This document shows positions 41,702 through 53,933 of a stretch of DNA of 64,000 nucleotides, piece after piece. A program made the position numbers and the translations under genes. Under the pieces are notes generated by a model. The model saw only the letters and a list, made by a program, of their open reading frames with translations. It searched no databases and was not told the origin of the DNA. The DNA lies in the NCBI RefSeq assembly GCF_025972045.1, contig NZ_JAPDHX010000003.1, positions 186,001-250,000 on the forward strand, read 5' to 3'. The DNA is from Micropruina sonneratiae (GTDB lineage: Bacteria > Actinomycetota > Actinomycetes > Propionibacteriales > Propionibacteriaceae). Positions within the stretch are counted from its first letter, which is position 1. Every line of letters begins with the position of its first letter.

Positions 41702-41784
41702 GCCGGAGTGGTGAAATTGGCAGACACGCAGGATTTAGGTTCCTGTGCCCGCAGGGCGTGAGGGTTCAAGTCCCTTCTCCGGCA
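41702..41784 (+). tRNA. tRNA-Leu (anticodon TAG)
   Basis: An 83-base class II tRNA. Acceptor arms GCCGGAG and CTCCGGC pair perfectly, and the discriminator A is at 41784. The anticodon stem CAGGA/TCCTG encloses TTTAGGT with anticodon TAG, which reads CTA and related Leu codons. A long variable arm (GCCCGCAGGGC) precedes the T arm with loop TTCAAGT. CCA is not encoded: the bases after the discriminator are CTC. Its 3' part is the left attachment site of the island. Confidence 0.95.
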
Positions 41785-41785
41785 C
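41758..41785. other. Left attachment site (attL) in tRNA-Leu
   Basis: The 28 bases from GTGAGGGTTC to CTCCGGCAC recur at 50669-50696 with one difference (AAG here, AGG there). Together the two sites bound an island of about 8.9 kb whose integrase sits next to the right copy. The tRNA sequence runs intact into attL. Confidence 0.85.
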
Positions 41786-41844
41786 TCGATTTGTGGCACT
41801 TGACAAGGTGCGATAGGTTCTGACCCCCTCCGGAGGGGCCCAAA

Positions 41845-41863
41845 CGTGCAACATACGTGCAAC
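41845..41863. repeat. Integrase arm-type repeat, left end
   Basis: CGTGCAACATACGTGCAAC contains two CGTGCAAC octamers separated by ATA. The identical 19-base block occurs at 50526-50544, at the other end of the island just before the integrase start. Paired octamers at both ends are the layout expected of arm-binding sites for a tyrosine integrase or excisionase. This site is 60 bases from attL. Confidence 0.65.
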
Positions 41864-41892
41864 AACAGAGACCGCGAAACGGCCCCAATGAT

Positions 41893-43275
41893 GGGACTGT
41901 CCGAAATCTGGTGTAACTGATCTGGCCTGATCTGCCGCCCCGGAAGGGGTGGCGGGAAGGACTGTCAGTGACGCAGGAGAGTGTCGGCCGTGAGGCTGAC
42001 CGAAGCACAAGAGGATGAGATTGCGCGTGGCCTGGTGGCTCGTGCGCGCAGCGAGGGTGCCGAGCTGGTCGGGCCGGACGGGTTGTTGTCCGGGCTGACG
42101 AAGCGGGTGCTGGAGGCCGCGTTGGAGGAGGAGCTGACCGACCATCTGGGTTTATGAGCCGCACGACCCGGCCGGTCACCATTCCGGCAACTCCCGCAAC
42201 GGCACCCGGGCCAAGACGGTCCTGACCGAGGTCGGCCCGGTCCAGGTCGCGGTGCCACGGGACCGGGCCGGCACGTTCGAGCCGGTGATCGTGCCGAAGG
42301 GGAAACGGCGCCTGGAAGGGGTGGACCGGATCGTGTTGTCGTTGACGGCGCGGGGTCTGACCACCGGGGAGAGCAGCGCCCATTTCGCCGAGGTGTACGG
42401 CGCGAGCATCGCCAAGGACACGGTCAGCCGGATCAGCGACCGGGTGATCGAGGAGATGACCGAGTGGCTGCACCGGCCCCTGGACGAGGGTGTACTCGGT
42501 GGTGTTCATCGACGCGATCGTGGTCAAGGTCCGCGGCGGCCAGGTCACGAACAAGTCGTTCTACGTGGCGATCGGGGTCACCGTGCACGGCGAGCGCGAC
42601 ATCCTCGGGATCTGGGCCGGCGATGGTGGCGAGGGTGCGAAGTTTTGGCTCAACGTGCTGACCGAGATCAAGAACCGGGGTGTCGCCGACGTGCTCATGC
42701 TCGTGTGCGACGGACTGAAGGGCCTACCGGATGCGGTCAACACGGTGTGGGAGAAGACGGTGGTCCAAACGTGTGTGATCCACCTGCTACGCAACACGTT
42801 CCGCTACGCCGCCCGGCAGGACTGGGACCGGATCGCGAAGGACCTGCGACCGATCTATACCGCGGTCAACGAGTCGATGGCGCGGGAACGGTTCGCCGAG
42901 TTCGCTGCCACCTGGCGGTCGAAGTATCCGGCGGCGGTCGCGTTGTGGGAACGCGCCTGGAGCGAGTTCGTGCCGTTCCTGGACTACGACGTGGAGATCC
43001 GAAGGATCATCGCCACCACCAACAGCATCGAATCGTTGAACGCCCGCTACCGCCGCGCAGTCCGGGCCCGGGGCCACTTCCCGACCGACCAGGCCGCACT
43101 CAAGTGCCTGTACCTGGTCACCAGGTCACTGGACCCCACCGGCCGCGGCAAGGCACGATGGGTCATCCGATGGAAGGCAGCGCTCAACGCGTTCGCCATC
43201 ACCTTCGAAGGGCGCATCAGCCCCTCGAACAACTAGAACGCCAGATGCCAGTTACACCGGAATACGGACAGACCC
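41893..43275. mobile_element. IS256-family insertion sequence, inactive
   Basis: 1383 bp, bounded by 27-bp terminal inverted repeats at 41893-41919 and 43249-43275 that match at 23 of 27 positions (both start GGG.CTGTCCG and end GGTGTAACTG). The single transposase gene is frameshifted. No 8-9 bp target duplication is visible at the ends (CCCAATGAT on the left, ACACCCACC on the right), so the element may have recombined after insertion or be old. Confidence 0.85.
41990..43236 (+). pseudogene. IS256-family transposase, frameshifted
   Basis: DDE-type mutator transposase in three pieces. The first, VRLTEAQEDEIARGLVARA to EEELTDHLGL, ends at a TGA near 42156. The second, PHDPAGHHSGNSRNGTRAKT to MTEWLHRPLDEG, follows in another frame. 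The third, from VYSVVFIDAIVVKVRGG to the TAG at 43236, has the DDE residues in VFIDAIVVKV, LVCDGLKGLPDAV and NSIESLNARYRR. Two frame changes prevent a full product unless programmed shifting occurs, which I see no signal for. Confidence 0.88.
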
Positions 43276-43378
43276 ACACCCACCGGCAATGCACATTGTG
43301 TATTCCGAGGGAGTGGTGAATGGCTGACGAGTCGGACAGCGGTCTTCGGCAAGGGGGAGGCGAAGGACCGATTGTGCG

Positions 43379-44035
43379 TCAGAGGTCGATTGAGCTGATC
43401 AGGGTGCGGACGCGGCGTTCGAGGTCGTCGCGGATGCGGCGGACGGTGTCGAGGTCTTGGCCGTGCGGGTCGTCGAGTTCCCAGGATTCGTAGCGTTTGC
43501 CGGGGAAGATGGGGCAGGCGTCGCCGCAGCCCATGGTGATCACGACGTCGGCGGCGCGGACGGTCTCGTCGGTCCAGGGCTTGGGGAACTCGTGGGTGAT
43601 GTCGATGCCCCGTTCGGCCATGGCCGTGAGGGCGGTCGGATTGATCTCGAGGCCGGGTTCGGAGCCGCCTGACCAGGCGACGGCTTTGTCGCCGGTGAGT
43701 GCTTGGAAGAAGCCGAGGGCCATCTGGGAGCGGCCGGCGTTGTGCGTGCAGAGGAACAAGACGACGGGTTTGCCGTCGGTGTGGAATCCTTCGACACGGG
43801 CGAGGGCGTGGAGGCGTTGGCGGGCGAACCGTTCGGCGAGCATCGGCAGGAACTTGGTGACTTTGGCGCGGTCGGCGAACTGGTCGAAGGAGCTGGCCAG
43901 GAATCGTTCGATGGTCTCGGGTCCGTAGAGGCCGGTGAACTCGTCGGCCAGTCGGGCGGCTGCCTGTTTGAGGGCAAGCTCCTTGTCGGCGTGGAGGCTT
44001 TCCCAGGTGCGTTCAGAGACGGTGTGGAGGGTCAT
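43379..44035 (-). CDS. arsC: Arsenate reductase (LMW-phosphatase fold) with N-terminal helical domain
   Basis: 218 residues. Residues 1-85 form a helical domain (SERTWESLHADKELALKQAA, KVTKFLPMLAERFARQRLHA) as in actinobacterial ArsC proteins with a three-helix bundle. Residues 90-218 are an LMW-phosphatase-like reductase: CTHNAGRS at 96-103 is the CX5R loop, and ITMGCGDACPIFPG supplies further Cys. It reduces arsenate to arsenite, probably with mycothiol or thioredoxin. The start overlaps the next gene's end by 23 bases. Confidence 0.88.
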   Translation of the reverse strand: MTLHTVSERTWESLHADKELALKQAAARLADEFTGLYGPETIERFLASSFDQFADRAKVTKFLPMLAERFARQRLHALARVEGFHTDGKPVVLFLCTHNAGRSQMALGFFQALTGDKAVAWSGGSEPGLEINPTALTAMAERGIDITHEFPKPWTDETVRAADVVITMGCGDACPIFPGKRYESWELDDPHGQDLDTVRRIRDDLERRVRTLISSIDL

Positions 44036-44702
44036 GAGGGTCTCCTTCGAGGCTGGCCGCGAGCAGGTCGACGCGGCTGGTGAGGTTGTCGTAGGCGGTG
44101 TCGAAGGCGTCGGCGCGGTCGACGCGGGCGGGGTCGGGGATCGACCAGTGCAGCGGCTGGGTGTCGAGTTCCTCGTAAGCGCGGTCGCAGACGGCGATCA
44201 GCAGTTCGTCGCCGGTGAGGACGTCCTGGGCGAGTTTCGGCGTGGCACCGGTGAGGTCGAGGCCGTGGCGGCGTCCGACTCTCACTGCCTGGGGGTGGAC
44301 GCGTGCGGCCGGGTGGGTTCCGGCCGAGACGACCGGGATGTCACTGATCGTGCGCCAATAGGACTCGCCAAGCTGGGAGCGGGCGGAGTTCTGTGAGCAG
44401 ACGAACGCAACCCTGCCCGGACGCGGCAGGTGGCCGGCGCCGCCGCCGATGAGCTGGTTGCACTCGGCGGTGCGGAGGATGTAGGTCCGTCGGCCGTCTC
44501 CCTCGGAGCGGCGGCGGGTGACGAGCCCGGCCTGTTGGAGGATCTGGAGGTGGTGGGACATCAGGTTGGTGGGAATGTCCAGGCGGGTGCCGAGTTCGCT
44601 CGGGGCGAGGTCGGCGTGGGCGAGGAGGTCGATGATCGCCAGCCGGGACGGGTCGCCGAGGGCGGCGTAGGCGCGGGCGCGTGTTTCGAGGTCGGTTGAC
44701 AT
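44013..44702 (-). CDS. ArsR-ArsC fusion: arsenic regulator joined to arsenate reductase-like domain
   Basis: 229 residues with two parts. Residues 1-80 are an ArsR/SmtB winged helix (YAALGDPSRLAIIDLL, LGTRLDIPTNLMSHHLQILQ). Residues 96-225 are an LMW-phosphatase/ArsC domain with VCSQNSARSQ, the CX5R loop at 102-108. The regulatory Cys pair usual in ArsR helix 3 is absent (the region reads APSELGTRLD), so sensing may be through the reductase domain. It is coupled with the downstream ArsC and divergent to another arsC. Confidence 0.85.
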   Translation of the reverse strand: MSTDLETRARAYAALGDPSRLAIIDLLAHADLAPSELGTRLDIPTNLMSHHLQILQQAGLVTRRRSEGDGRRTYILRTAECNQLIGGGAGHLPRPGRVAFVCSQNSARSQLGESYWRTISDIPVVSAGTHPAARVHPQAVRVGRRHGLDLTGATPKLAQDVLTGDELLIAVCDRAYEELDTQPLHWSIPDPARVDRADAFDTAYDNLTSRVDLLAASLEGDPHDPPHRL

Positions 44703-44718
44703 CCGGCGATACCTCCAT

Positions 44719-44737
44719 GATTATTGAGTCAATGATC
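44719..44737. promoter_or_regulatory. Palindromic operator between arsR-arsC fusion and arsC
   Basis: GATTATTGAGTCAATGATC is a 19-bp palindrome with one mismatched pair, centred on ATTGAGTCAAT. It lies 16-34 bases upstream of the fusion gene's start (44702, minus strand) and 51-69 bases upstream of the divergent arsC start (44788). It is the likely site of the fused ArsR protein and would control both directions. Confidence 0.6.
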
Positions 44738-44787
44738 GCTGAGGTAAACGAGAACGTCAATCCCGGGGAGCCGGGAGAGATCGAGGC

Positions 44788-45216
44788 ATGATGAGTAAGC
44801 CGACCGTCCTGTTCGTGTGTATCCACAACGCCGGACGCTCGCAGATGGCCGCGGGCTACCTGCGACGGCTGGCCGGGAACCGGGTGGAGGTGTTGTCGGC
44901 GGGCTCGAGCCCTGCTGATGCGGTCAACCCTGTCGCGGTGCAGGCGATGGCCGAGGAGGGGATCGACATCACCGGCGAACAGCCCAAGGTACTCACCACC
45001 GACGCGGTGAAAACCTCCGATGTTGTGATCACGATGGGCTGCGGGGACACCTGCCCGTTCTATCCGGGCAAGCGGTACGAGGACTGGGTGTTGGACGACC
45101 CTGCCGGGCAGGGCATCGAGGCTGTGCGGCCGATCCGTGATGAGATCCGCCGCCGCATCGAGACCCTCCTCGATGAGATCCTCCCCAACCAGGCCGAAGG
45201 CGTCCCGGCGTCGTGA
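44788..45216 (+). CDS. arsC: Arsenate reductase (LMW-phosphatase fold)
   Basis: 142 residues. VLFVCIHNAGRSQMAAGYL contains the CX5R loop (Cys, His-Asn-Ala-Gly-Arg), and VVITMGCGDTCPFYPGKRYE carries the second and third Cys. It is the third protein with this domain in the island, closest in arrangement to thioredoxin- or mycothiol-linked ArsC. ATG 44788 or 44791 may be used. It ends convergent to arsA with a terminator between. Confidence 0.9.
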   Translation: MMSKPTVLFVCIHNAGRSQMAAGYLRRLAGNRVEVLSAGSSPADAVNPVAVQAMAEEGIDITGEQPKVLTTDAVKTSDVVITMGCGDTCPFYPGKRYEDWVLDDPAGQGIEAVRPIRDEIRRRIETLLDEILPNQAEGVPAS

Positions 45217-45226
45217 TCCATGCCGA

Positions 45227-45258
45227 GCGCGGCACCAGCCCTGAGACTGGTGCCGCGC
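45227..45258. terminator. Bidirectional terminator between arsC and arsA
   Basis: GCGCGGCACCAG (45227-45238) pairs with CTGGTGCCGCGC (45247-45258), a perfect 12-bp stem with an 8-base loop, between convergent genes. Confidence 0.8.
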
Positions 45259-45280
45259 AGACCTTCTTGCGATGTGCTGA

Positions 45281-47023
45281 TCAGTGGACGAGGGCCTCGG
45301 TTGCCGGCCGGCTGGGTGTGGCGACAGCGTCTCCCCACGGCACTTGGGCGAGGCGGCGGCCGTCGCGCCGGATCGCGGCCAGTGGCCCGGCTTCGGCGCT
45401 CTGCCGCTGTCGCAGCAGTGGGTTGGCCGTGTCGGCGCCGTCGAGGGTCTGGTTGATCACCCATGCCCAGGGGTGGATGTCGGCGCGTTCGAGGTCGGCC
45501 TGGAGTTGTTCGGCTTCCAGAACAGGTGTGGTTTCGGCCAGGGTGATGATGATCGCCTTTGTGTAGTCGGGGTCCTGCAGGCGCATCAGCGGGGTGGTGA
45601 AGTTCATGCCGTCGGCCATGTTCCGGACGATTTCGTTGTGGTAGGAGCCGCTGGCGTCCATCAGCAGCAGGGTGTGACCGGTGGGAGCGGTGTCCATCAC
45701 GACGAACCTGTGCCGGGCCTCGGCCACGGCGTGGGAGAATGCTTGGAACACCGCGACTTCTTCGGTGCAGGGTGAGCGGAGGTCCTCGGCCAGAGCGGCT
45801 CGTCCGTCGTCGTCCAGGGTCGCGCCTTTGGTCGCCATGACCCGTTCCCGGTACTCGGCGGTGGCTTGATCGGGGTCGATGCTCGACACCCGTAGCCGGT
45901 CCGAGGCCAGCGATGTGTCGAGGTGGGCGGCCGGGTCGGTGGTGGTCAGGTGGACGTCCTTGCCGAGGGCGACCAGCTGGAGCGCGACCGCGCTGGCGAT
46001 CGTGGTCTTGCCGACACCGCCCTTGCCCATGCACATCACCAGTCCCTGATCGGTGGTGGCCAGCTCTGCCACGAGCGCATCCAGGCCCGGCAGGGACGCT
46101 GCCACGGCCGTCCACGTTTGGTCGACGTGGGCCACTTTCGCGTCCACGCTGAGGAGGCTGCGGAGGGCGGGGACGCCGACCATGTCGACCCCGCGGAGGG
46201 CGAGGTGGTCGCTGGCCAGCCCGGCCAGCTGCGGTGGGAGGTCGGCGAGCGCTTGTTGTTCCCGCTCGCGGATGGTGTCGGCCAGTCGGTCCCCATCGGC
46301 GCCGGATGGCATGACGCCGTTGACGACGAGGTGGGTGGCCAGCACGCCGGCCTCGGCCAGCTCGTCGACGGTGCGGGCCGCTTCGGTCAGGGCGCCGTGC
46401 TGGGCGCGGGCGACCAGGACGAGTCGGGTGCTGGCCGGATCGGCCAGGGTGGCCAGTGCGCGTCCGTAGGTGGACCTCGACTTCTCCAGCCCGGACATCG
46501 GCCCGAGGCAGGAGGTGTCGCCCTTGCCGTCGTCGATGAACCTGGTCCACTCGCCGGGCAGCTGGAGGAGCCGGACGGTGTGGCCGGTCGGGGCGGTGTC
46601 AAAGATGACGTGGTCGTAGCCGTCGGTTGCGTCGGTGCCAGCGAGCAGGTCGGTGAACTGATTGAACGAGGCGATCTCGGTGGTGCAGGCGCCCGACAGC
46701 TGCTCGGTCACCGCCGCCAGGTCCGCTTCGGACAGGAAGTTGCGGACCGGGGCCAGGGTGCGGTCCCGGTACTGCGCGGCCGCCTCTTCCGGGTCGATCT
46801 CCAGGGCGTCCAGGCCGGGCACGGCCGAGATCGGGCTGATCTGGTCACCGACCGCCTGGCCGAACACCTGGCCAACGTTGGACGCCGGGTCGGTGGAGAC
46901 CAGGAGCACCCGGCGGTCCCGATCCGCCAGGTCGACCGCGGTCGCGCACGCCACACTGGTCTTGCCCACCCCGCCCTTGCCGGTGAAGAACACGTAGCGC
47001 GGCAGCTCGTCGAGGAATCTCAC
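45281..47023 (-). CDS. arsA: ArsA, arsenite-efflux ATPase
   Basis: Peripheral ATPase that energises arsenite efflux. 580 residues, two tandem halves: P-loops GKGGVGKTS at 15-23 and GKGGVGKTT near 330, and the signature DTAPTGHT in each. Cys for arsenite binding are in SGACTTEIASF and RSPCTEEVAVF. GTG 47023 overlaps the arsD stop by four bases (GTGA). ArsA needs a membrane partner (ArsB or Acr3), which is not encoded in this island. Confidence 0.95.
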   Translation of the reverse strand: MRFLDELPRYVFFTGKGGVGKTSVACATAVDLADRDRRVLLVSTDPASNVGQVFGQAVGDQISPISAVPGLDALEIDPEEAAAQYRDRTLAPVRNFLSEADLAAVTEQLSGACTTEIASFNQFTDLLAGTDATDGYDHVIFDTAPTGHTVRLLQLPGEWTRFIDDGKGDTSCLGPMSGLEKSRSTYGRALATLADPASTRLVLVARAQHGALTEAARTVDELAEAGVLATHLVVNGVMPSGADGDRLADTIREREQQALADLPPQLAGLASDHLALRGVDMVGVPALRSLLSVDAKVAHVDQTWTAVAASLPGLDALVAELATTDQGLVMCMGKGGVGKTTIASAVALQLVALGKDVHLTTTDPAAHLDTSLASDRLRVSSIDPDQATAEYRERVMATKGATLDDDGRAALAEDLRSPCTEEVAVFQAFSHAVAEARHRFVVMDTAPTGHTLLLMDASGSYHNEIVRNMADGMNFTTPLMRLQDPDYTKAIIITLAETTPVLEAEQLQADLERADIHPWAWVINQTLDGADTANPLLRQRQSAEAGPLAAIRRDGRRLAQVPWGDAVATPSRPATEALVH

Positions 47024-47463
47024 CGGTCGCCTCCGCAGCATCCGCGGCGGGGAGTCGTAATCTGCAGGGTCTGGATTGCGGGCGCGCAACAGCCGAGTTC
47101 GGCCGCCTCACCGCCACAGCAGGCCGCCGACGTGGACGCCTCCTGCACTGTCAGGCCGGCGTAGCTGGCGAGTTCGGACCGTGTCGGGTAGCGGCCGATC
47201 AGCACCGTCATGCCATCCACGGTCACCAACGGGAGCGCGTCTGCCCCAGCCGTCTGCAGGAAAGCCACCGCCAACCCGTCGGCGGCGAACGCGGCCGGGT
47301 CTTGGGCCAGATTCGCCCGGGTCAGGCGTACTCCCTGGTCGGAAACCCATCGCGCGTCCGCGGTGAAGTCCACCACCGCTTGGGCAGGGTCGGGGCCGCA
47401 CACCCCGGTGTTACAGCACAGCGGTCCTTCGAAGACCTTGATCAGGGGCATCAGCAGCTCCAT
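47020..47463 (-). CDS. arsD: ArsD, arsenite metallochaperone
   Basis: 147 residues (143 if ATG 47451 is used). Thioredoxin-like, with CCNTGVCG near the N terminus giving the three Cys (two adjacent plus one) that pass arsenite to ArsA. Further Cys pairs AACCGGE, LGCCAP and GCCGGD lie near the C terminus. It directly precedes and overlaps arsA. Confidence 0.92.
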   Translation of the reverse strand: MELLMPLIKVFEGPLCCNTGVCGPDPAQAVVDFTADARWVSDQGVRLTRANLAQDPAAFAADGLAVAFLQTAGADALPLVTVDGMTVLIGRYPTRSELASYAGLTVQEASTSAACCGGEAAELGCCAPAIQTLQITTPRRGCCGGDR

Positions 47464-47529
47464 CTCGTATAGACGATTGTCAATACGAGATTCAAGCAGT
47501 CGTATCGACGGGTGTCAATGTGACGAGCG
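47464..47529. promoter_or_regulatory. arsR-arsD spacer with repeated TCGTAT/ATACGA motifs
   Basis: The 66-base gap holds TCGTAT, ATACGA and TCGTAT again (about 47465-47506), giving overlapping inverted repeats. The short motif also resembles half of the perfect arsR operator (GTATCGA). A secondary promoter or operator for arsDA is possible. Confidence 0.35.
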
Positions 47530-47907
47530 TCAACAGCAGCGGGGGCCGTCGGTCGCCTCTCCGAGGAAGTCCCGGGCCACGTCAAGGACGGCAGGGACCG
47601 CGGCATAGTGGGCCCAGCGGCCCCGCCGTTCGCGGGTCACTAGGCCGGCGCTGACTAGCTTCTTCAGGTGATGCGACAGGGTCGGCTGGCTGATTCCCAG
47701 GGCGTCGGGCATGTGGCAGGCGCACGCGGTGCCGTGCTCGGCGGTGGCGATGTGCGCCAGCAGCCTGACCCGAGCCGGATCGGCGAGCGCTTTGAAGATC
47801 TCCGCCAGGCAGTCCGCCCGCGCGGCGGGAATCAACTCGCCGGACTCGGGTGCGCACGCCTCGCCAGGATCACCGGCAACCATCACATCGAGTGTCATCC
47901 GCGCCAT
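47530..47907 (-). CDS. arsR: ArsR/SmtB-family arsenic repressor
   Basis: 125 residues. KALADPARVRLLAHIA begins the winged helix, ISQPTLSHHLKKLVSAGLVT is the recognition helix region, and GTACACHMP places Cys at the sensor position. A C-terminal RCC may add to metal binding. It leads the unit arsR-arsD-arsA. A perfect palindromic operator lies 11 bases upstream of its start. Confidence 0.9.
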   Translation of the reverse strand: MARMTLDVMVAGDPGEACAPESGELIPAARADCLAEIFKALADPARVRLLAHIATAEHGTACACHMPDALGISQPTLSHHLKKLVSAGLVTRERRGRWAHYAAVPAVLDVARDFLGEATDGPRCC

Positions 47908-47917
47908 CCTTACAGCC

Positions 47918-47953
47918 TAGCCGACGTATCGACAGAGTTCGATACGTCGGCTA
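47918..47953. promoter_or_regulatory. ArsR operator upstream of arsRDA
   Basis: TAGCCGACGTATCGA (47918-47932) and TCGATACGTCGGCTA (47939-47953) are a perfect 15-bp inverted repeat with a 6-base spacer, immediately upstream of arsR. The position and symmetry fit autorepression by the ArsR dimer. Confidence 0.75.
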
Positions 47954-47981
47954 ATGCCTGTTGGCGGTCCCGCCCGTCAGG

Positions 47982-48779
47982 CTAGGCAGGCTTGACGGCC
48001 CGCACGATGGCGCCGTGCATCTGTGGGGCGACCTCGTGGGTGAACCTCACCTCGATGTCGGTGAATCCGGCGGCGGTGAGCCCGTCGATGTACTCCTGGC
48101 GGGAGAGCGCGCCGGCGACGCAGCCGACGTGGCTGCCGCGCTCGGTCCGATCAGCGGGGGTGAGGTAGTCCTCGGCGACCACGTCGGAGACGCCGACCCG
48201 GCCGCCGGGAGCGAGGACGCGGAACATCTCGTCCAGGACCTTCGGCTTGTCCACCGATAGGTTGATCACGCAGTTGGAGATCACCACGTCCACCGCGGCA
48301 TCCGGCAGCGGCACCTGTTCGATCCGGCCCTTCAGGAACTCGACGTTGGTGGCGCCCGCCTTGGCCGCGTTTTCGCGGGCCAGGGCGAGCATCTCGTCGG
48401 TCATGTCGACCCCGTAGGCAAACCCGTCCCGACCGACCCTGCGGGCCGACAGCAGCACGTCCAGCCCGCCGCCCGAACCGAGGTCGAGGACGCGCTCGCC
48501 GGGGTTCAGCTCGGCCACCGCGGTCGGGTTCCCGCAGCCCAGGCTCGCGGTCACAGCCAGCTCGGGCACCTGTCCGGCCTGATCGGCGTCATACAGAGCC
48601 GACCCGAACACCTCGGTCTCCGCGGTACCAGAGCAGCAGCCATCCCCGCCGCAATAGCCGCTGCCGCCACCGTCCAGATCGTCCAGGATGTCGATGGGCC
48701 GTCTACCGGTGCTCATCGCCGCTCTCGCCGCGGCGGCGTACCGGTCCCGGACCTGCCCCACCACATCACTGTCACCCAT
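47982..48779 (-). CDS. arsM: ArsM, arsenite S-adenosylmethionine methyltransferase
   Basis: 265 residues. SAM-binding motif VLDLGSGGGLDVLLSARRVG, preceded by GYCGGDGCCSG (Cys-rich N-terminal stretch) and followed by VISNCVINLSVDKPKVL, whose Cys is one of the conserved arsenite-binding residues, and HVGCVAGALS, the other. It methylates As(III), giving more mobile or volatile species. ATG 48779 is favoured (GTGGAG/AGGAAGTGAG upstream); a GTG at 48791 overlaps arsR2. Confidence 0.93.
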   Translation of the reverse strand: MGDSDVVGQVRDRYAAAARAAMSTGRRPIDILDDLDGGGSGYCGGDGCCSGTAETEVFGSALYDADQAGQVPELAVTASLGCGNPTAVAELNPGERVLDLGSGGGLDVLLSARRVGRDGFAYGVDMTDEMLALARENAAKAGATNVEFLKGRIEQVPLPDAAVDVVISNCVINLSVDKPKVLDEMFRVLAPGGRVGVSDVVAEDYLTPADRTERGSHVGCVAGALSRQEYIDGLTAAGFTDIEVRFTHEVAPQMHGAIVRAVKPA

Positions 48780-48787
48780 TACTCCAC

Positions 48788-49183
48788 TCACTTCCTGTTC
48801 GTTTCGATCGTCAGCAGCTGCTTCGTCGGGGCCGGGTCGAGGAGCTGATGGATCGCCTGCAGCCCGGCAACGTTCACCCAGTACCAGGTCTGGCGGCCGT
48901 CCCGTTCCCGCTCCAGGAACCCGGCATCGAACAACGCCCCCAAGTGGTGGGTCACCGTCGGCTGACTCAACCCCAACCGCTCAGCCAACACACCCGTCGT
49001 CGCCCGGCCCCCCGCAGTAGCACGGATCAGGCTCAACAACCGCAACCGGGCCGGGTCAGCCAACGCCTTCAACGCCCCCGCCAACACCAACGCCTCCTCC
49101 GGCTGCAACTCCGCCTGCAACACCGGCGAGCAGCACAGATCCCCCACCAACATGGGTCGGGCCGAGACCTCCTGAAGACTCAT
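48788..49183 (-). CDS. arsR: Second ArsR-family regulator, upstream of arsM
   Basis: 131 residues. MLVGDLCCSPVLQAELQPEE at the N terminus has a CC pair, then KALADPARLRLLSLIRAT and LGLSQPTVTHHLGALFDAGF (recognition helix). The CC near the N terminus probably pairs with further thiols to sense As(III). It is transcribed with arsM and precedes palindromic operator sequences. It is distinct from the ArsR at 47.7 kb. Confidence 0.88.
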   Translation of the reverse strand: MSLQEVSARPMLVGDLCCSPVLQAELQPEEALVLAGALKALADPARLRLLSLIRATAGGRATTGVLAERLGLSQPTVTHHLGALFDAGFLERERDGRQTWYWVNVAGLQAIHQLLDPAPTKQLLTIETNRK

Positions 49184-49216
49184 AGATATGTGTCTATCAT
49201 ATCGACTAGTGTCGAT
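49182..49216. promoter_or_regulatory. Operator region of arsR2-arsM
   Basis: Two palindromes lie at and just upstream of the arsR2 start: ATAGA-TATGTG-TCTAT (49182-49197) and ATCGAC-TAGT-GTCGAT (49201-49216). Both have the dyad spacing of ArsR-type operators. One or both may be the autoregulatory site. Confidence 0.6.
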
Positions 49217-49363
49217 CAATAGAGGCTCATCGATGATTCCGACACAACTTCTCGTGGAGGTTGCCGGGGCTACATCTCGCTGCCCGTGCTTGCCCGCAGT
49301 AGGAGGGGATCGGACGTCAAGCCTAGTATCTCCACTAGTCAGACCAGCGAATCGTGGTGAACG

Positions 49364-50512
49364 CTAGCCCGTTGGTCGCGTCCCTTCCAGAATCCGGGAC
49401 AGCCCCTGAGCTACCCTCGCGTCCGCTCCGTCCAAGCTGTGCTGGTAGTGCATGGCCATGCCCGGAGTGGCGTGCCCAAGGCGCGCCATGACGTCGGCGG
49501 TGGTGGCTCCGACGGAGGTCGCGAGTGAGGCACCGGTGTGGCGTAGCGTGTCTGGTGTGGCGTCCGGACGGCCCGCCGCCGCAGCGGCCTTCCGGAAGAG
49601 CCGCGCGAACGAGGACGAATGCAGGTGGCCGCCGGTGGGCGCCGGGAACAGCAGCGCCTCCGGACCCGCGTCCACGTAGGTGTCGAGATGGGTCTTCAGC
49701 TCCGGCAGCAGGGCTGGCGGAACGTGTACCCGACGGACGCCGGCATCGGTCTTGGTGTCACCAATGAGGTAGCCGCCCTTGACCTTCACCACTCCGCGAG
49801 ACACCTCGAGCACGCCCGCCTTGAGATCGACGTCCTGGCGTCGCAGTTCCGACAGCTCCCCGTACCGAAGAGCGCACCAACAGCCCAGAAGCACGGCCGT
49901 GCGCAGCCGCGCAGGCATGGCGCGCGCCAGGTCGGCGACTTGCGCCACGGTCAGTGGCTCGATGTTCTTGGCTCGCTTCGTGCGCACCTTGGTGCGGCTC
50001 GGCAGCGCCACCGGGTTGCTGTCGACCAGCTCAGACTCCACCGCGCCGACCATGACGTTGTGGAGCAATTGGAACGCCTTGGACCGGGCGCGTGGTTTCG
50101 TCGGGTCGAGCGTGCTCCACCACTGCCGGACGCCACTCTTGGTCAGTTCCTCCACCGGCATCGTTCCCAGCGCAGGAACGATGTGATTGGCCAGCAGCGA
50201 GTCGTAGTCGCGCCGGGTCGCGGGCCGGAGGTCAAGGTCGCGCAGCCACGTCCTGGCAAACGTCTCGACGGTCAGCGGCACGGGCTTGGGCGCCGCTGCC
50301 GCAGCGGCGGCTTGGGCCAGTCGGACGGCGGGTGGGCGCCAGGTTTCGCTTTCGACCAACCGGCGCTCATCACTGAGCCAGGTCTCGGCGTCCGCCGCAC
50401 TGGTGAACGTGACCGGTGCGACGTGGCGCTGCAGGTCCGGCCCGGCGTAGCTGGCCTGGTACCGCCTGGACGGCAGCCGCCTGATCGCTCCGAAGCTCCG
50501 GCGTCGAGCCAT
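49364..50512 (-). CDS. int: Tyrosine-type integrase
   Basis: 382 residues. The N-terminal arm-binding and SAM-like domains (TVETFARTWLRDLDLRPAT) are followed by the catalytic domain with Arg in CWCALRYGELSEL, Lys in IGDTKTDAGVRRV, TLRHTGAS (Arg of HxxR; the usual first His reads Asp), GHATPGMAMHYQHS (His and the Tyr nucleophile). ATG 50512 begins MARRRSFG. It lies about 155 bases from the right att copy and is the recombinase of the island. Confidence 0.93.
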   Translation of the reverse strand: MARRRSFGAIRRLPSRRYQASYAGPDLQRHVAPVTFTSAADAETWLSDERRLVESETWRPPAVRLAQAAAAAAAPKPVPLTVETFARTWLRDLDLRPATRRDYDSLLANHIVPALGTMPVEELTKSGVRQWWSTLDPTKPRARSKAFQLLHNVMVGAVESELVDSNPVALPSRTKVRTKRAKNIEPLTVAQVADLARAMPARLRTAVLLGCWCALRYGELSELRRQDVDLKAGVLEVSRGVVKVKGGYLIGDTKTDAGVRRVHVPPALLPELKTHLDTYVDAGPEALLFPAPTGGHLHSSSFARLFRKAAAAAGRPDATPDTLRHTGASLATSVGATTADVMARLGHATPGMAMHYQHSLDGADARVAQGLSRILEGTRPTG

Positions 50513-50525
50513 CAGGACCCCATTT

Positions 50526-50544
50526 CGTGCAACATACGTGCAAC
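50526..50544. repeat. Integrase arm-type repeat, right end
   Basis: Identical to the 19-base block at 41845-41863 (two CGTGCAAC octamers). It lies just upstream of the integrase start and 124 bases before the right att core, consistent with binding that also affects integrase transcription. Confidence 0.65.
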
Positions 50545-50652
50545 ATCTCATCGCGTTTTGGTGCCAACGGGACCACCTTATCGCACGTTTTCGGGATCTG
50601 CATCCGATACGTCGGTGCTTGTCAGAGCGAGTTATCTAGGGATTTCTCCACA

Positions 50653-50696
50653 GGAGAAGGGACAGTGTGTGAGGGTTCAGGTCCCTTCTCCGGCAC
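50653..50696. other. Right attachment site (attR) with hairpin
   Basis: The 28-base att core at 50669-50696 matches the tRNA-Leu 3' end with one change. It is followed by CA, so the sequence reads CTCCGGC-A-CCA: the displaced tRNA end with an encoded CCA. GGAGAAGGGAC (50653-50663) is the exact reverse complement of GTCCCTTCTCC (50681-50691) in the core, so the site can fold. The 373 bases 50513-50885 contain no gene besides these sites. Confidence 0.8.
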
Positions 50697-50885
50697 CAGA
50701 GCGCCCGCCTCGGCGCGGCACCGCTCAAGCCACGACCTGGTGCCGATCCCGCGACACGGGCGGCCTGCTCCCCGCGCGGCCGATCACAGGACTTGCACAA
50801 TGAATCCTTGCTGGTCCCTCGCTGGCTCACAGCACGTGCATGGGTTGGTGGCCGAGGCTGGGGCCAGTCCAATCGAGGAGTGCAG

Positions 50886-51131
50886 ATGTCGTCAGCCGTG
50901 AAGCGGGCCCGCCTGGCCCTGGCCGCCGTGCTCACCGCAGCGACGTTCACCACCGGTGCCATCGTCGCCGGACTGGCCCAGGCGGCCACTGCCGCCGACG
51001 CGGCCACCACCACGTCGGGCACGGGCTCCAGCAGCGGCTCGAGCCCCAACGAGGGCTCATCCCGCTTCGGCTCCGCCGGCTCGGCCGGGTCGTCGTCCGG
51101 CTCCTCGCAGACCACCACCAGGGGGTCGTGA
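50886..51131 (+). CDS. Small exported Ser/Gly/Thr-rich protein of the redox operon
   Basis: 81 residues. The signal peptide is MSSAVKRARLALAAVLTAA onward, with likely cleavage after AQAATA. The mature 45 residues are nearly only Ser, Gly, Thr and Ala (TTTSGTGSSSGSS, SAGSAGSSSGSS), with one Arg-Phe in the middle. No Cys and no known domain. GAGGAG precedes the ATG. It is followed after one base by apbE, so it may be the substrate of the flavin transferase, but no classical flavinylation motif (S/T-G-A-T) is present. Confidence 0.6.
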   Translation: MSSAVKRARLALAAVLTAATFTTGAIVAGLAQAATAADAATTTSGTGSSSGSSPNEGSSRFGSAGSAGSSSGSSQTTTRGS

Positions 51132-51132
51132 G

Positions 51133-52095
51133 ATGAGCATCGCCGAGCCGGCCGCCCCGTCCGCCGGGCAGGTCACGATGGCCGACTTCGAGGCCATCGG
51201 CACCACGAACAGCATCCTGGCCACCAACTCCGCCTGCCTCGCTCCCGCCGTCGAGGTGGCGCGCGAATACCTGGCCGCGCTGGACGCCGCCGTGTCGCGT
51301 TTCCGCGACGACTCCGAGGTGATGCGATTGAGCGGCGCGGCCGAGTCGGGGGACGTGTGGTTCTTCGCCTCCGAGTTGTTCAACGACCACCTGGACGCCG
51401 CGCTGCGGGCCGCGTGGCTCAGCGGCGGCCTGGTCGACTTCACCGTCGGCAACGCCGTGATCGACGCCGGCTACAACGTGGACCTGCGGCTGGTCCGCGC
51501 CCGCGAGACCTGGACGCCGTCCGTCCGGCCACCGATCGTGCCCGGCTGGCGCCGGGTGCACCGCGGCCCGGGCGGCAGGGTGTCGGTGCCGCGCGGCACG
51601 GTGCTCGACTTCGGCGCCACCGCCAAGGCGCACGCCGCCGACCGGATCGCCCAGCGTCTCGCCGAGCAGTTTTGCGGCGGGTTCCTGGTCAACCTGGGCG
51701 GCGACATCGCCACTGCGGGCACGGCGCCTGCGGACGGCTGGCGCGTCGGGGTCGAGGACGCCGACGGCGCCGTCGAGCAGGTCATCACCGTCACCGACCA
51801 GGCGGTCGCCACGTCGTCCATCCGGCTGCGCCGCTGGGTCACCGACGCCGGCCCCGTCCACCACATCATCGACCCGTTCACCGCCGAACCGGCCGTTCCG
51901 GTCTGGTCGCAGGTGACCTGTGTGGCCGCGAACGCGCTGGAGGCGAACACCGCCTCGACCGCCGCGATCATCCTCGGGGAGGAGGCGCCCGCCTGGCTCA
52001 CCGGCGTCGGCGTCGCGGCCCGGCTGGACCGGCCCGACGGTCGCAGCACGTGCACACCGCGGTGGCCGCTGCCGGAGGTCGGCGGCGTCCGATGA
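51133..52095 (+). CDS. apbE: ApbE-like FAD:protein FMN transferase
   Basis: Attaches FMN covalently to Thr/Ser of partner proteins. 320 residues, with DFGATAKAHAADRIAQ (the ApbE flavin-binding motif), LVNLGGDIATAG and HHIIDPFTAEPAVP. No signal peptide or lipobox is visible, so it acts in the cytoplasm or uses a non-standard route. The metal-site segment reads LEANTASTAA. It overlaps the following gene by ATGA. No FMN-binding domain protein of the usual type is encoded next to it. Confidence 0.85.
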   Translation: MSIAEPAAPSAGQVTMADFEAIGTTNSILATNSACLAPAVEVAREYLAALDAAVSRFRDDSEVMRLSGAAESGDVWFFASELFNDHLDAALRAAWLSGGLVDFTVGNAVIDAGYNVDLRLVRARETWTPSVRPPIVPGWRRVHRGPGGRVSVPRGTVLDFGATAKAHAADRIAQRLAEQFCGGFLVNLGGDIATAGTAPADGWRVGVEDADGAVEQVITVTDQAVATSSIRLRRWVTDAGPVHHIIDPFTAEPAVPVWSQVTCVAANALEANTASTAAIILGEEAPAWLTGVGVAARLDRPDGRSTCTPRWPLPEVGGVR

Positions 52096-52658
52096 GCGAC
52101 CACCTGCTGTGGTACCTGTCCCGTGCCAGCGGCGTGGTCAGCGTGATGCTGTTCACGGCCGTCGTGGTGCTGGGTGCGTTGACGGCCGGACGCCGACGTC
52201 CGCACGGCGGTGGCGCGACGATCGTGATCGCCCTGCACCGTTGGCTGTCCCTGGGCCTGGTGGCGTTCCTGGCGGTGCACATCGTGACCGCCATCGCCGA
52301 CGGCTACGTGTCGATCGGCTGGCTGGCGACCGTGCTGCCGTTCACCTCGGGCTACGAGACCCTGTGGGTCGGCCTGGGCACGATCGCGTTCGACCTGATG
52401 CTGGCCGTCGTGATCACCAGCCTGCTGCGGCACCGCCTCCCCGAACGGCTGTGGCGGCTGGTGCACTGGGCCGCCTACGCGAGTTGGCCGATCGCGCTGG
52501 TGCACGGCTTCGCGATGGGCACCGGCGACCAGCCGGTGCTGCGGGTGGTCACCCTCGGCTGCGCGGCGATCGGGGCGGCTGCCGTGCTGTGGCGGGTGCT
52601 CGCCACCCACGCCGACCAGGTGCGGCGGCGCGAGATCGAGGCGCAGGAGTGGGCGTGA
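52092..52658 (+). CDS. Ferric-reductase-like transmembrane haem protein
   Basis: 188 residues, about five or six transmembrane helices. His residues suited to haem binding occur in VIALHRWLSLGLVAFLAVHIVTA and WRLVHWAAYASWPIALVHGFAMG, two pairs on two helices as in the ferric reductase-like domain family. The C-terminal helix ends in QVRRREIEAQEWA. It would carry electrons across the membrane. Overlaps at both ends (ATGA upstream, GTGA downstream) tie it to apbE and the NuoF-like gene. Confidence 0.8.
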   Translation: MSDHLLWYLSRASGVVSVMLFTAVVVLGALTAGRRRPHGGGATIVIALHRWLSLGLVAFLAVHIVTAIADGYVSIGWLATVLPFTSGYETLWVGLGTIAFDLMLAVVITSLLRHRLPERLWRLVHWAAYASWPIALVHGFAMGTGDQPVLRVVTLGCAAIGAAAVLWRVLATHADQVRRREIEAQEWA

Positions 52659-53746
52659 CGGACGTGATCACCCTGCTCGAGTCGGCCGGCCTGACCGGCC
52701 GGGGCGGCGCCGGCTTCAGCACCGCCGTCAAGGTGAAGGCCGCCCGTGACCACGGCGCGCGGCTGATCGTCAACGCCTGCGACGGCGAGTTGGGCGCCGC
52801 CAAGGACGCCTGGATCGTCGAACACAAGCTCGTTGAGCTGCTCGAGGGTGTGCGCCTGGTGGCGGGGGAGGGCGAGGTCCGGTTCGCCGCGCATCGTGGT
52901 TCGCGTACCGCCGAGGTGCTGGCCGCGGCCGGGTTGCGGGTGCTGGCGGTGCCGCACCGGTACGTGTCGTCGGAGGAGTCGGCGCTGATCGCGCTGGCCG
53001 GCGGCCGGCCCGCCAAGCCGATGACCAAGCGGACGCCGTTCGTCTTCGGCGGCCGCGACAGCCAGGGCCGGCCGGTCGCTGCGACGGTGGTGCTGAACGC
53101 CGAGACGGTGTGGCGCGTGGGGCAACTGCAGCGTTACGGAGCGGGCTGGTTCCGCTCGTTCGGGACGCCGGCGGAGCCCGGTCCGCGGCTGGTGGCGGTC
53201 GGCGGCGCGGTGCAGCGGCCCGGGGTGTACGAGACTGCCGCCGGGGTCGGGCTGGGCGAGCTGCTGGGCCTGGCCGGCGGCGCGGTGCCCGGCGTCCGGT
53301 ATGTCGGCGTGGGTGGCTTGGGCGGCGTCCTGCTGAGCGTGCAGGAGGTGGCGCTGACCAGGTGGGACACCCCCGGCATGGCCGCCCGCGGCGGTTCGCT
53401 GGGCCCCGGAGTGGTGACCGCCTGGGATCCCGCGGAGTGCCCGCTGAACGTGGCCGGCCGGCTGATCGGTTATGGAGCGGGCGAATCCGCCGGAAAGTGC
53501 GGGCCGTGCATGTTCGGCCTGCCCCGGCTCGCGCAGGACTGGGACGAGCTGGTGCGGCGTCCGACCATGGCGGGTCGGGACGCGTTCGAGCACAGGCTGG
53601 CGCTACTGGCCGGACGTGGCGCCTGCCACCACCCCGACGGCGTCGTGCGGTTCACCCGCTCGGCGCTGCACACGCTGGCGCCCGAGTTCGCCGCGCACGC
53701 CGCCGGCCGTTGCGAACGGAGGGTCGCAGATGCCGCCCACGCCTGA
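52655..53746 (+). CDS. NuoF-like NAD(P)H-dependent flavo-iron-sulfur protein
   Basis: 363 residues resembling the NADH-binding subunit of complex I: GLTGRGGAGFSTAVK (FMN/NADH loop), ACDGELGAAKDAWIVEHK, SSEESALIALAGGRP, an SLBB-like part (VAVGGAVQRPGVYETA) and the Fe-S module GESAGKCGPCMFG with a later GRGACHHPDG. It probably takes electrons from NAD(P)H. The third Cys of ESxGKCxPC is spaced as in NuoF. GTG 52655 overlaps the previous stop; GTG 52649 is also in frame. Confidence 0.85.
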   Translation: MTDVITLLESAGLTGRGGAGFSTAVKVKAARDHGARLIVNACDGELGAAKDAWIVEHKLVELLEGVRLVAGEGEVRFAAHRGSRTAEVLAAAGLRVLAVPHRYVSSEESALIALAGGRPAKPMTKRTPFVFGGRDSQGRPVAATVVLNAETVWRVGQLQRYGAGWFRSFGTPAEPGPRLVAVGGAVQRPGVYETAAGVGLGELLGLAGGAVPGVRYVGVGGLGGVLLSVQEVALTRWDTPGMAARGGSLGPGVVTAWDPAECPLNVAGRLIGYGAGESAGKCGPCMFGLPRLAQDWDELVRRPTMAGRDAFEHRLALLAGRGACHHPDGVVRFTRSALHTLAPEFAAHAAGRCERRVADAAHA

Positions 53747-53933
53747 GAACGTACGGGTCGCCGTCGACCGGGTGCTCTGTTCGGGGCACGGGGTTTGCGC
53801 CCAGACCCTGCCCGGCACCGTCGTCCTGGACGAGTGGGGCTACCCGATCCTCCGCACCGGGGCCACGGACGCCGCGGCGGCGTCCCTGGCGATCAAGCTC
53901 TGCCCGGCGCGGGCGCTGTACCTGCGGCCCTGA
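53730..53933 (+). CDS. Single-cluster ferredoxin
   Basis: 67 residues. CSGHGVCAQTLPG and KLCPARALYL give three Cys in the C-x5-C...CP pattern of small [3Fe-4S]/[4Fe-4S] ferredoxins used with P450s and reductases; the fourth cluster ligand is not a Cys (position reads GHG). It overlaps the end of the NuoF-like gene by 17 bases and ends the five-gene operon. It could link the NuoF-like protein to the membrane haem protein. Confidence 0.85.
   Translation: MPPTPENVRVAVDRVLCSGHGVCAQTLPGTVVLDEWGYPILRTGATDAAAASLAIKLCPARALYLRP

Follow-up and report, generated by a model that had tools for sequence, protein, structure and literature searches.

Five tightly packed genes in a 64,000-nucleotide stretch of the Micropruina sonneratiae genome (contig NZ_JAPDHX010000003.1, positions 186,001 to 250,000; the whole stretch is called the window below) encode a small, presumably exported peptide, an ApbE-type flavin transferase, a haem membrane protein, a NuoF-like protein and a ferredoxin. 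We propose, from sequence comparison and with a probability of roughly 70%, that this ApbE attaches flavin mononucleotide (FMN) to the C-terminal serine of the peptide, and that the resulting domain-free flavin arm takes electrons from the di-haem membrane protein. The peptide belongs to a conserved and apparently undescribed class of small exported peptides whose genes immediately precede apbE in actinobacterial operons of the apbE/MsrQ-like/NuoF-like/ferredoxin type. In the open-access literature (supplementary files and subscription papers were outside the scope of this search), no description was found of a flavinylated peptide that lacks a domain and is modified at its C-terminus. What would be new here is the type of substrate and the enzyme clade that matches it, ApbE-dependent flavinylation itself being known.

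Operon layout and domain content

The genes lie exactly where a preliminary description of the window, made from the sequence alone, had placed them, and the five-gene operon that it claimed, with a one-base gap and overlapping genes, was recovered in full, Pfam backing the last four genes. The features are as follows:

50886-51131, + strand: peptide gene; 81 residues, predicted to be exported or anchored, Ser/Thr/Gly-rich, C-terminus TTTRGS; no Pfam or NCBIfam family
51117-51128, + strand: codons of the C-terminal Thr-Arg-Gly-Ser, within the peptide gene
51133-52095, + strand: apbE; 320 residues, ApbE-type transferase of FMN from flavin adenine dinucleotide (FAD) to protein (FAD:protein FMN transferase); PF02424; no signal peptide
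52092-52658, + strand: gene of the MsrQ-like/ferric-reductase-like haem membrane protein; 188 residues; PF01794; His49/63/125/138
52655-53746, + strand: NuoF-like NAD(P)H dehydrogenase gene; 363 residues; Complex1_51K, SLBB-like and NADH_4Fe-4S parts; Cys281/284/323
53730-53933, + strand: ferredoxin gene; 67 residues, single-cluster; C-x5-C ... CP (Cys17, 23, 58); PF13459

A single base separates the peptide gene from apbE, and the subsequent junctions are an ATGA overlap (apbE/MsrQ-like), a GTGA overlap (MsrQ-like/NuoF-like) and a 17-base overlap (NuoF-like/ferredoxin). The GAGGAG that ends 5 bases before the ATG of the peptide gene is likely its ribosome-binding site, and an AGGGGG within the codons of the last four residues probably doubles as that of apbE. 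At the domain level, Pfam recognizes ApbE (PF02424, 5.7e-44, 151.1 bits against a curated cut-off of 25.6), Ferric_reduct in the MsrQ-like protein (PF01794, 1.2e-7, 32.2 bits against a cut-off of 28), Complex1_51K (PF01512, 1.1e-16) and NADH_4Fe-4S (PF10589, 5.2e-10) in the NuoF-like protein, whose SLBB-like part stays below the cut-off, and Fer4_15 (PF13459, 1.4e-7) in the ferredoxin. The NuoF-like protein misses the NCBIfam equivalog score for NuoF (137.8 bits, against 558.65), and can thus be called NuoF-like only. The peptide matches no family at E<=1 in Pfam or NCBIfam, FMN_bind (PF04205) included, in line with the earlier statement that it has no FMN-binding domain.

This five-gene arrangement is more than chance, since the order recurs on a plasmid and the partners recur beside related apbE genes. 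Specifically, the identical order is annotated on an Arthrobacter plasmid (L212), and six loci on Arthrobacter, Gordonia, Rhodococcus and Cnuibacter plasmids carry the last four genes in window order, annotated as 'FAD:protein FMN transferase / ferric reductase-like / NADH-ubiquinone oxidoreductase-F / ferredoxin'; the peptide is annotated as 'hypothetical' in two of the six and unlisted in four, in a gene table known to be incomplete. At 113 loci whose peptide carries the C-terminal motif described below, same-strand partners were found for the MsrQ-like protein in 105, the NuoF-like protein in 93 and the ferredoxin in 57 (many stretches stop before the last genes). Clustering of the frames in loci with the window's kind of ApbE gave ApbE, MsrQ-like and NuoF-like proteins as the large families, and one further large cluster with no assigned family (547 frames from 142 loci), presumed to consist of antisense shadow frames. 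A conserved extra partner gene did not emerge from the seven small clusters scanned, which comprised an ABC transporter ATPase, DUF222/HNH, an APH-like kinase or frames with no Pfam match.

The conserved C-terminus of the peptide

The end of the peptide points to a flavin because it resembles the ApbE target motif [S/T]GA[S/T], here placed at the very end of the chain. The residue that receives FMN from ApbE is the last one in D-x-x-[S/T]-G-A-[S/T], seven residues being sufficient (PMC12052999). In the portion of that work drawn on here, replacement of the Asp had only minor effects with one test substrate, Gly-to-Ala and Ala-to-Val changes lowered modification to about half, and the threonine could be replaced by serine with lower efficiency. 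The window peptide ends Q-T-T-T-R-G-S, which does not match the exact seven-residue motif and does match the relaxed form [S/T]-x-[G/A/V]-[S/T]. The preliminary description had stated that there is no classical flavinylation motif; as worded, this does not hold, for the exact motif is indeed absent, yet TRGS is a degenerate [S/T]GA[S/T], and among the more degenerate versions in the class.

Loci were gathered by ApbE similarity, with a search profile built from seven sequences of the window's kind (termed Asn-type after the active-site residue discussed in the next section). In a first set of 127 loci, leaving out L001, L002 and L112 (the window's own locus), an upstream open reading frame (ORF) that combines a hydrophobic segment with a low-complexity tail was present in 110, and 99 of these candidates end [S/T]-x-[G/A]-[S/T], where 5.2 would be expected from shuffling the last 44 residues. 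In a larger set, selected by a filter that disregards the last five residues, 133 candidates stood beside an Asn-type ApbE and 119 end [S/T]-x-[G/A/V]-[S/T], against 6.7 expected by shuffling (114 of 128 once five loci fetched twice are removed). A conserved peptide/apbE pair in other genomes and an invariant Thr or Ser in the peptide, both raised in the preliminary description, are therefore found, the conserved residue being the C-terminal one (Ser in 118 and Thr in 5, together 123/133). Position -2 is Gly in 97 and Ala in 25 peptides, position -4 is Ser in 82 and Thr in 44, and the intermediate form [S/T]-G-[G/A/V]-[S/T] terminates 67/133.

Across relatives, the middles of the peptides are variable and the C-termini conserved. 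Beyond the hydrophobic segment, the median length of the tail is 68 residues (range 30, the floor of the method, to 162), and the stretch ahead of the segment is net positive in 116/119 motif-bearing peptides, which suggests either an N-in, C-out topology or a signal peptide; an A-x-A site follows the segment in 88/119. Export by the twin-arginine (Tat) route is not claimed, as two consecutive arginines precede the segment in 81/119 peptides against 67.3 expected by shuffling, and the window peptide has none. A plasmid search by ApbE alone matched 348 records; nine of the 15 matches listed were opened (H1-H7, H10, H13), giving two loci of a Glu type (see below) and seven of the Asn type (three on Arthrobacter and two on Rhodococcus plasmids), and all seven of the latter fit the peptide pattern. 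Some loci hold more than one peptide, namely three different ones ending x-G-S near one apbE at L211, and two each at L008, L032, L033, L034, L103 and L202 (L103 and L202 share identical peptide endings); these extra tandem peptides were picked by the motif, and so show that more copies exist, not how many lack it.

The motif ends none of the 32 genes upstream of Asp-type apbE, nearly all of which are FMN_bind genes, and among other frame ends in Asn-type loci, some being truncated where the stretch stops, it occurs in ApbE 0/149, MsrQ-like 0/133 and NuoF-like 1/119. Other ORFs in these loci that pass the same filter carry it in 17/633 cases, 12 of which fall among the 45 most low-complexity ORFs and mostly resemble further peptide copies. 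These controls bear on the suggestion that the terminal Gly-Ser is an artefact, arising because the ribosome-binding site of apbE lies over the 3' end of the frame before it. The peptide stop does overlap the first possible apbE start, by a median of four bases, and purine-only Gly codons (GGG/GGA) are enriched at position -2 (44/95, against 155/645 in the bodies), so that part of the Gly signal there is codon-level, as expected of an overlapping ribosome-binding site. However, 51 of the 95 Gly codons at -2 are GGC or GGT, the Ser/Thr at -4 and -1 would be left unexplained, only 1/401 other frame ends has the motif, and peptide genes that do not directly precede apbE share the ending, though these were picked out by it. 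Such an overlapping site shapes the codons and does not explain the residues; the artefact, already contradicted by the codon and gene-junction controls, has a negligible chance of being the right explanation.

It might also be argued that the peptide is a truncated FMN_bind protein which has lost both domain and function, as FMN_bind proteins occupy the same gene position, share an N-terminal hydrophobic segment and have S-G-A-T near their C-terminus. Nevertheless, the bodies of the peptides diverge, whereas the motif-bearing end is kept in many Actinomycetota, as well as in a few loci that are labelled as belonging to other phyla. Such a pattern suggests selection rather than decay, and we consider the truncation reading highly improbable. 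As history alone, descent of the peptide from an FMN_bind protein by shortening is possible.

A distinct ApbE clade

The catalytic residues of the Vibrio cholerae ApbE are named as Ser241, His257 and Asp285 in the section of the source used here (PMC12052999). The window ApbE, whose best match among ApbEs in the PDB reaches 1.4e-17 and whose AlphaFold2 model has a predicted local distance difference test score (pLDDT) of 85.4, keeps the first two as Ser228 and His244, with identical spacing. The residue at the third position (272 in the window protein), which was not a criterion in choosing loci, although the search profile came from Asn-type sequences, varies with the neighbouring gene. Across 207 loci, it is Asn in 110 of the 113 with a motif peptide (the others being two gaps and one Glu) and Asp in 34/34 with an adjacent FMN_bind gene, and no locus holds both motif peptide and FMN_bind; the 60 loci with neither detected include 39 Asn, many of them filter misses, and 18 Glu. 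The Asp-type loci mostly entered the set through the adjacency of ApbE and FMN_bind, seven through ApbE similarity alone, and at least one is present twice (L020 = L167). In a tree of 115 rows (35 Asp types, 19 Glu types, the window and 60 random Asn types), the Asn-type ApbEs form one clade (SH-aLRT, the Shimodaira-Hasegawa-like approximate likelihood ratio test, 99).

Given the change from Asp to Asn at an active-site position, Asn-type ApbEs could be FAD pyrophosphatases or other FAD enzymes rather than flavinyltransferases, in which case the peptide would be unrelated or would carry flavin without a covalent bond, as a shuttle. FAD hydrolysis by a relative of ApbE has precedent, as reported for Treponema Ftp (in the part of PMC4767422 consulted). 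This seems improbable, since the active-site Ser and His are each kept in 111/111 scorable motif-peptide loci, and since an FAD enzyme of this kind would leave the ApbE-like motif at the end of the peptide unexplained.

The Glu-type ApbEs (L172-L184, L190, L018, L219, L220) occur mostly with MsrQ-like proteins and longer peptides, and L219 and L220 also have annotated 2Fe-2S proteins. Of the 19 Glu-type loci, 14 have a candidate peptide, among which 9 end in Ser, 8 in [S/T]xx[S/T] and 3 in the relaxed motif; two candidates (L024, L028) resemble FMN_bind proteins. On a Streptomyces plasmid (L219), a Met/Gly-rich peptide ends SGNGS, and at the other opened Glu-type plasmid locus the peptides end KASGG and ERDD. 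The group, which was kept out of the main claim, is possibly another peptide-flavin system.

Substrate content of the genomes

The window genome (17 contigs, estimated to be 100% complete) encodes one ApbE. A canonical FMN-binding protein encoded elsewhere, which the preliminary description had considered as the alternative target of this enzyme, was sought and rejected: PF04205 has no match at E<=1, and neither do PF10029 (DUF2271), PF03116 (NQR2/RnfD) and PF12682 (Flavodoxin_4), while DUF3570, motif-bearing FMN_red and fumarate reductases were not searched for. The same kind of comparison was extended to 393 genomes of the class, searched with ApbE and FMN_bind queries, in 48 of which the ApbE profile finds a match at E <= 8.1e-78 (the Asn was verified just in the fetched loci). 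FMN_bind is found in none of the 20 genomes with a single ApbE match, and in 21 of the 28 with two or more; in these 48 genomes, the window-type ApbE is never the sole ApbE alongside an FMN_bind protein.

A further possibility is that the peptide is a wall- or adhesion-like accessory, its C-terminus a recognition tag (for a chaperone, a transporter or docking on the membrane haem protein), with ApbE modifying another protein of the operon. Low-complexity Ser/Thr-rich exported proteins are common, the flavin on the peptide is inferred rather than directly evidenced, and the catalytic Asp of ApbE is replaced. Even so, we consider this unlikely. The conserved end resembles the ApbE target motif, adjoins apbE and is not seen upstream of Asp-type apbE; the invariant or nearly invariant columns of the MsrQ-like alignment contain no [S/T]GA[S/T] (the NuoF-like protein and the ferredoxin were not examined for the motif); and the four substrate families above have no match in the window genome. 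As the preliminary description had held, the peptide is the most plausible extracytosolic target of ApbE in the operon.

The redox partners

The membrane protein is predicted to bind two b-haems because its four histidines (His49, 63, 125 and 138) are invariant, in 126-131 scorable rows each among the Asn-type loci. Its AlphaFold2 model (pLDDT 91.2) has five long helices and one short one, and Foldseek gives weak matches to the transmembrane domains of STEAP and NOX/DUOX proteins (best E 8.4e-3, STEAP2; none below 0.001). Relatives of the NuoF-like protein keep the glycine-rich stretch and Cys281/284/323, and relatives of the ferredoxin keep three Cys.

VIT-family genes are annotated near the operon on a Rhodococcus plasmid (L215, 8124-8858) and a Cnuibacter plasmid (L216, 1020-1742), a hint pointing to iron. 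The link was not borne out when phmmer with one VIT gene found no relative in any Asn-type locus 7 kb or longer (61 loci); the same loci contain response regulators in 24 cases and histidine kinases in 16.

Proposed mechanism and its standing

Gene order, domains, conservation of haem and iron-sulfur (Fe-S) ligands, the C-terminal motif, the ApbE active-site switch and the lack of four substrate families in the genome are directly established; flavinylation of the peptide serine, membrane topology and the order and direction of electron flow are what we infer. The operon would then be a compact transmembrane electron-export line, with a flavin on a flexible tether as its last carrier. In the natural order, NAD(P)H would reduce the NuoF-like flavoprotein, whose Fe-S cluster would pass electrons to the small ferredoxin, and from there to the MsrQ-like di-haem protein, the outer haem of which would hand them to the FMN carried by the peptide. 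The specialised ApbE, cytosolic as judged by its sequence, would use FAD as the donor and couple its FMN to the hydroxyl group of the serine that ends the peptide ([S/T]-x-[G/A]-S-COOH). The N-terminal hydrophobic segment may anchor the peptide, or may be a signal that is cleaved off, in which case the peptide would be released. The tail, of low complexity and presumably disordered, would let the terminal FMN travel from the outer haem to an acceptor located in the cell wall or farther out.

A number of observations weigh against flavinylation of the peptide. Asn272 of the window ApbE replaces the catalytic Asp (Asp285 in V. cholerae), one of few conserved catalytic residues, and this change could mean a different or lost activity. 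The Asn-type ApbEs being a single clade, the link between residue and substrate is one evolutionary event rather than many, and the association between ApbE number and FMN_bind in the 48 genomes (Fisher p = 8e-8) is likewise uncorrected for kinship. In addition, a simple hydropathy test finds an N-terminal hydrophobic segment in 0/149 Asn-type, 0/35 Asp-type and 0/19 Glu-type ApbEs, so flavinylation in the cytosol must precede export of the peptide C-terminus, a problem common to the actinobacterial FMN_bind loci examined. The match to the motif is also loose: the exact [S/T]GA[S/T] terminates just 18/133 peptides, position -7 (Asp in the motif) is mostly His (41) or Gln (28) and is Asp in 12/133, 14/133 candidates have no motif, 11/133 also carry [S/T]GA[S/T] within the body, and the codon enrichment at -2 noted above belongs here too. 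Finally, 16/149 Asn-type loci have no candidate peptide, and the second Asn-type apbE of a relative (L029) has none either. At the mycobacterial-type Asn-type apbE of L051, L058, L063, L195 and L201, there is a same-strand ferredoxin match and no peptide or MsrQ-like match; the neighbours of these genes resemble, by eye, two-component regulators, and the rest of the system may lie elsewhere in those genomes.

More tentatively, the peptides may form a natural class of domain-free redox proteins, each a disordered string, held at the membrane or secreted, with covalent FMN on its C-terminal serine and a dedicated Asn-type ApbE clade, where the carboxylate of the substrate possibly supplies the missing acid (substrate-assisted catalysis). 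That this C-terminal carboxylate compensates for the lost catalytic Asp is speculative, and, if the peptide is flavinylated, the Asp-to-Asn change in the partner enzymes would raise a mechanistic question on ApbE.

A widespread way for electrons to leave the bacterial cytosol is through flavins bound covalently to exported proteins, and 670 genomes (given as 4%) have apbE and no recognised substrate in the portion of the survey cited (PMC8238504). If flavinylated, such peptides would explain part of the Actinomycetota genomes in this position, and the peptide is a concrete substrate candidate for many Actinomycetota, the loci including Streptomyces, Arthrobacter, Amycolatopsis and Pseudonocardia. 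A flavin electron carrier would then require no folded domain, the last residue of a protein could be flavinylated, and loci with two or three peptides would possibly carry several flavin arms of different length and reach.

Genomic surroundings

The redox operon begins just outside what appears to be an integrative element of about 9 kb (41702-50700), flanked on one side by a tRNA-Leu gene (41702-41785) and on the other by a second copy of the 3' end of this gene (the 16 bases at 41770 recur identically at 50681). It contains a tyrosine integrase (49364-50551). Others of its genes read like an arsenic cassette, presumably encoding an arsenite methyltransferase and ArsR-like, ArsA-like ATPase and ArsC-like proteins.

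Comparison with known systems

The closest known systems are the MsrQ-like flavinylation clusters, mostly actinobacterial, in which apbE accompanies a membrane haem protein of family PF01794. The survey describing them counts 31 clusters with a NuoF-like PF10589 protein and proposes that NAD(P)H is the electron donor in some clusters at least (Meheust et al. 2021, PMC8238504). The window operon resembles them in its apbE, its PF01794 haem protein with two His pairs and its NuoF-like protein. However, as far as the cited portion of the survey describes them, such clusters typically hold a gene with an FMN-binding domain, whereas the window operon has a short domain-free peptide and an Asn-type ApbE instead.

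Among the sequences compared here, the FMN_bind (PF04205) genes before Asp-type apbE (e.g. L152-L167, L020) share with the peptide its position, an N-terminal hydrophobic segment and a signal-less ApbE, but differ in the FMN_bind domain itself, an internal S-G-A-T and an ApbE with Asp; the 34 FMN_bind loci have no same-strand NuoF-like or ferredoxin match.

Substrates with DUF2271, DUF3570, Flavodoxin_4 and FMN_red domains were found by apbE context and an [S/T]GA[S/T]-like motif and confirmed by co-expression, the FMN_red substrate having its motif in an unstructured C-terminal extension (PMC8238504, PMC11334425). The peptide is like these in that it is not an FMN_bind protein, adjoins apbE and carries a motif-like sequence. 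On the basis of the excerpts cited, it differs in that these substrates contain named domains, while none was found in the peptide, and its motif is formed by the last four residues.

The engineered flavin tag (Tong et al. 2021, as described in part in PMC12052999) is a short motif flavinylated by ApbE, best at the N or C terminus. This tag is artificial and, in that description, uses the canonical seven-residue motif with Asp, whereas the peptide would be its natural counterpart, with the modified residue at the C-terminus; if so, nature employs what engineers have built.

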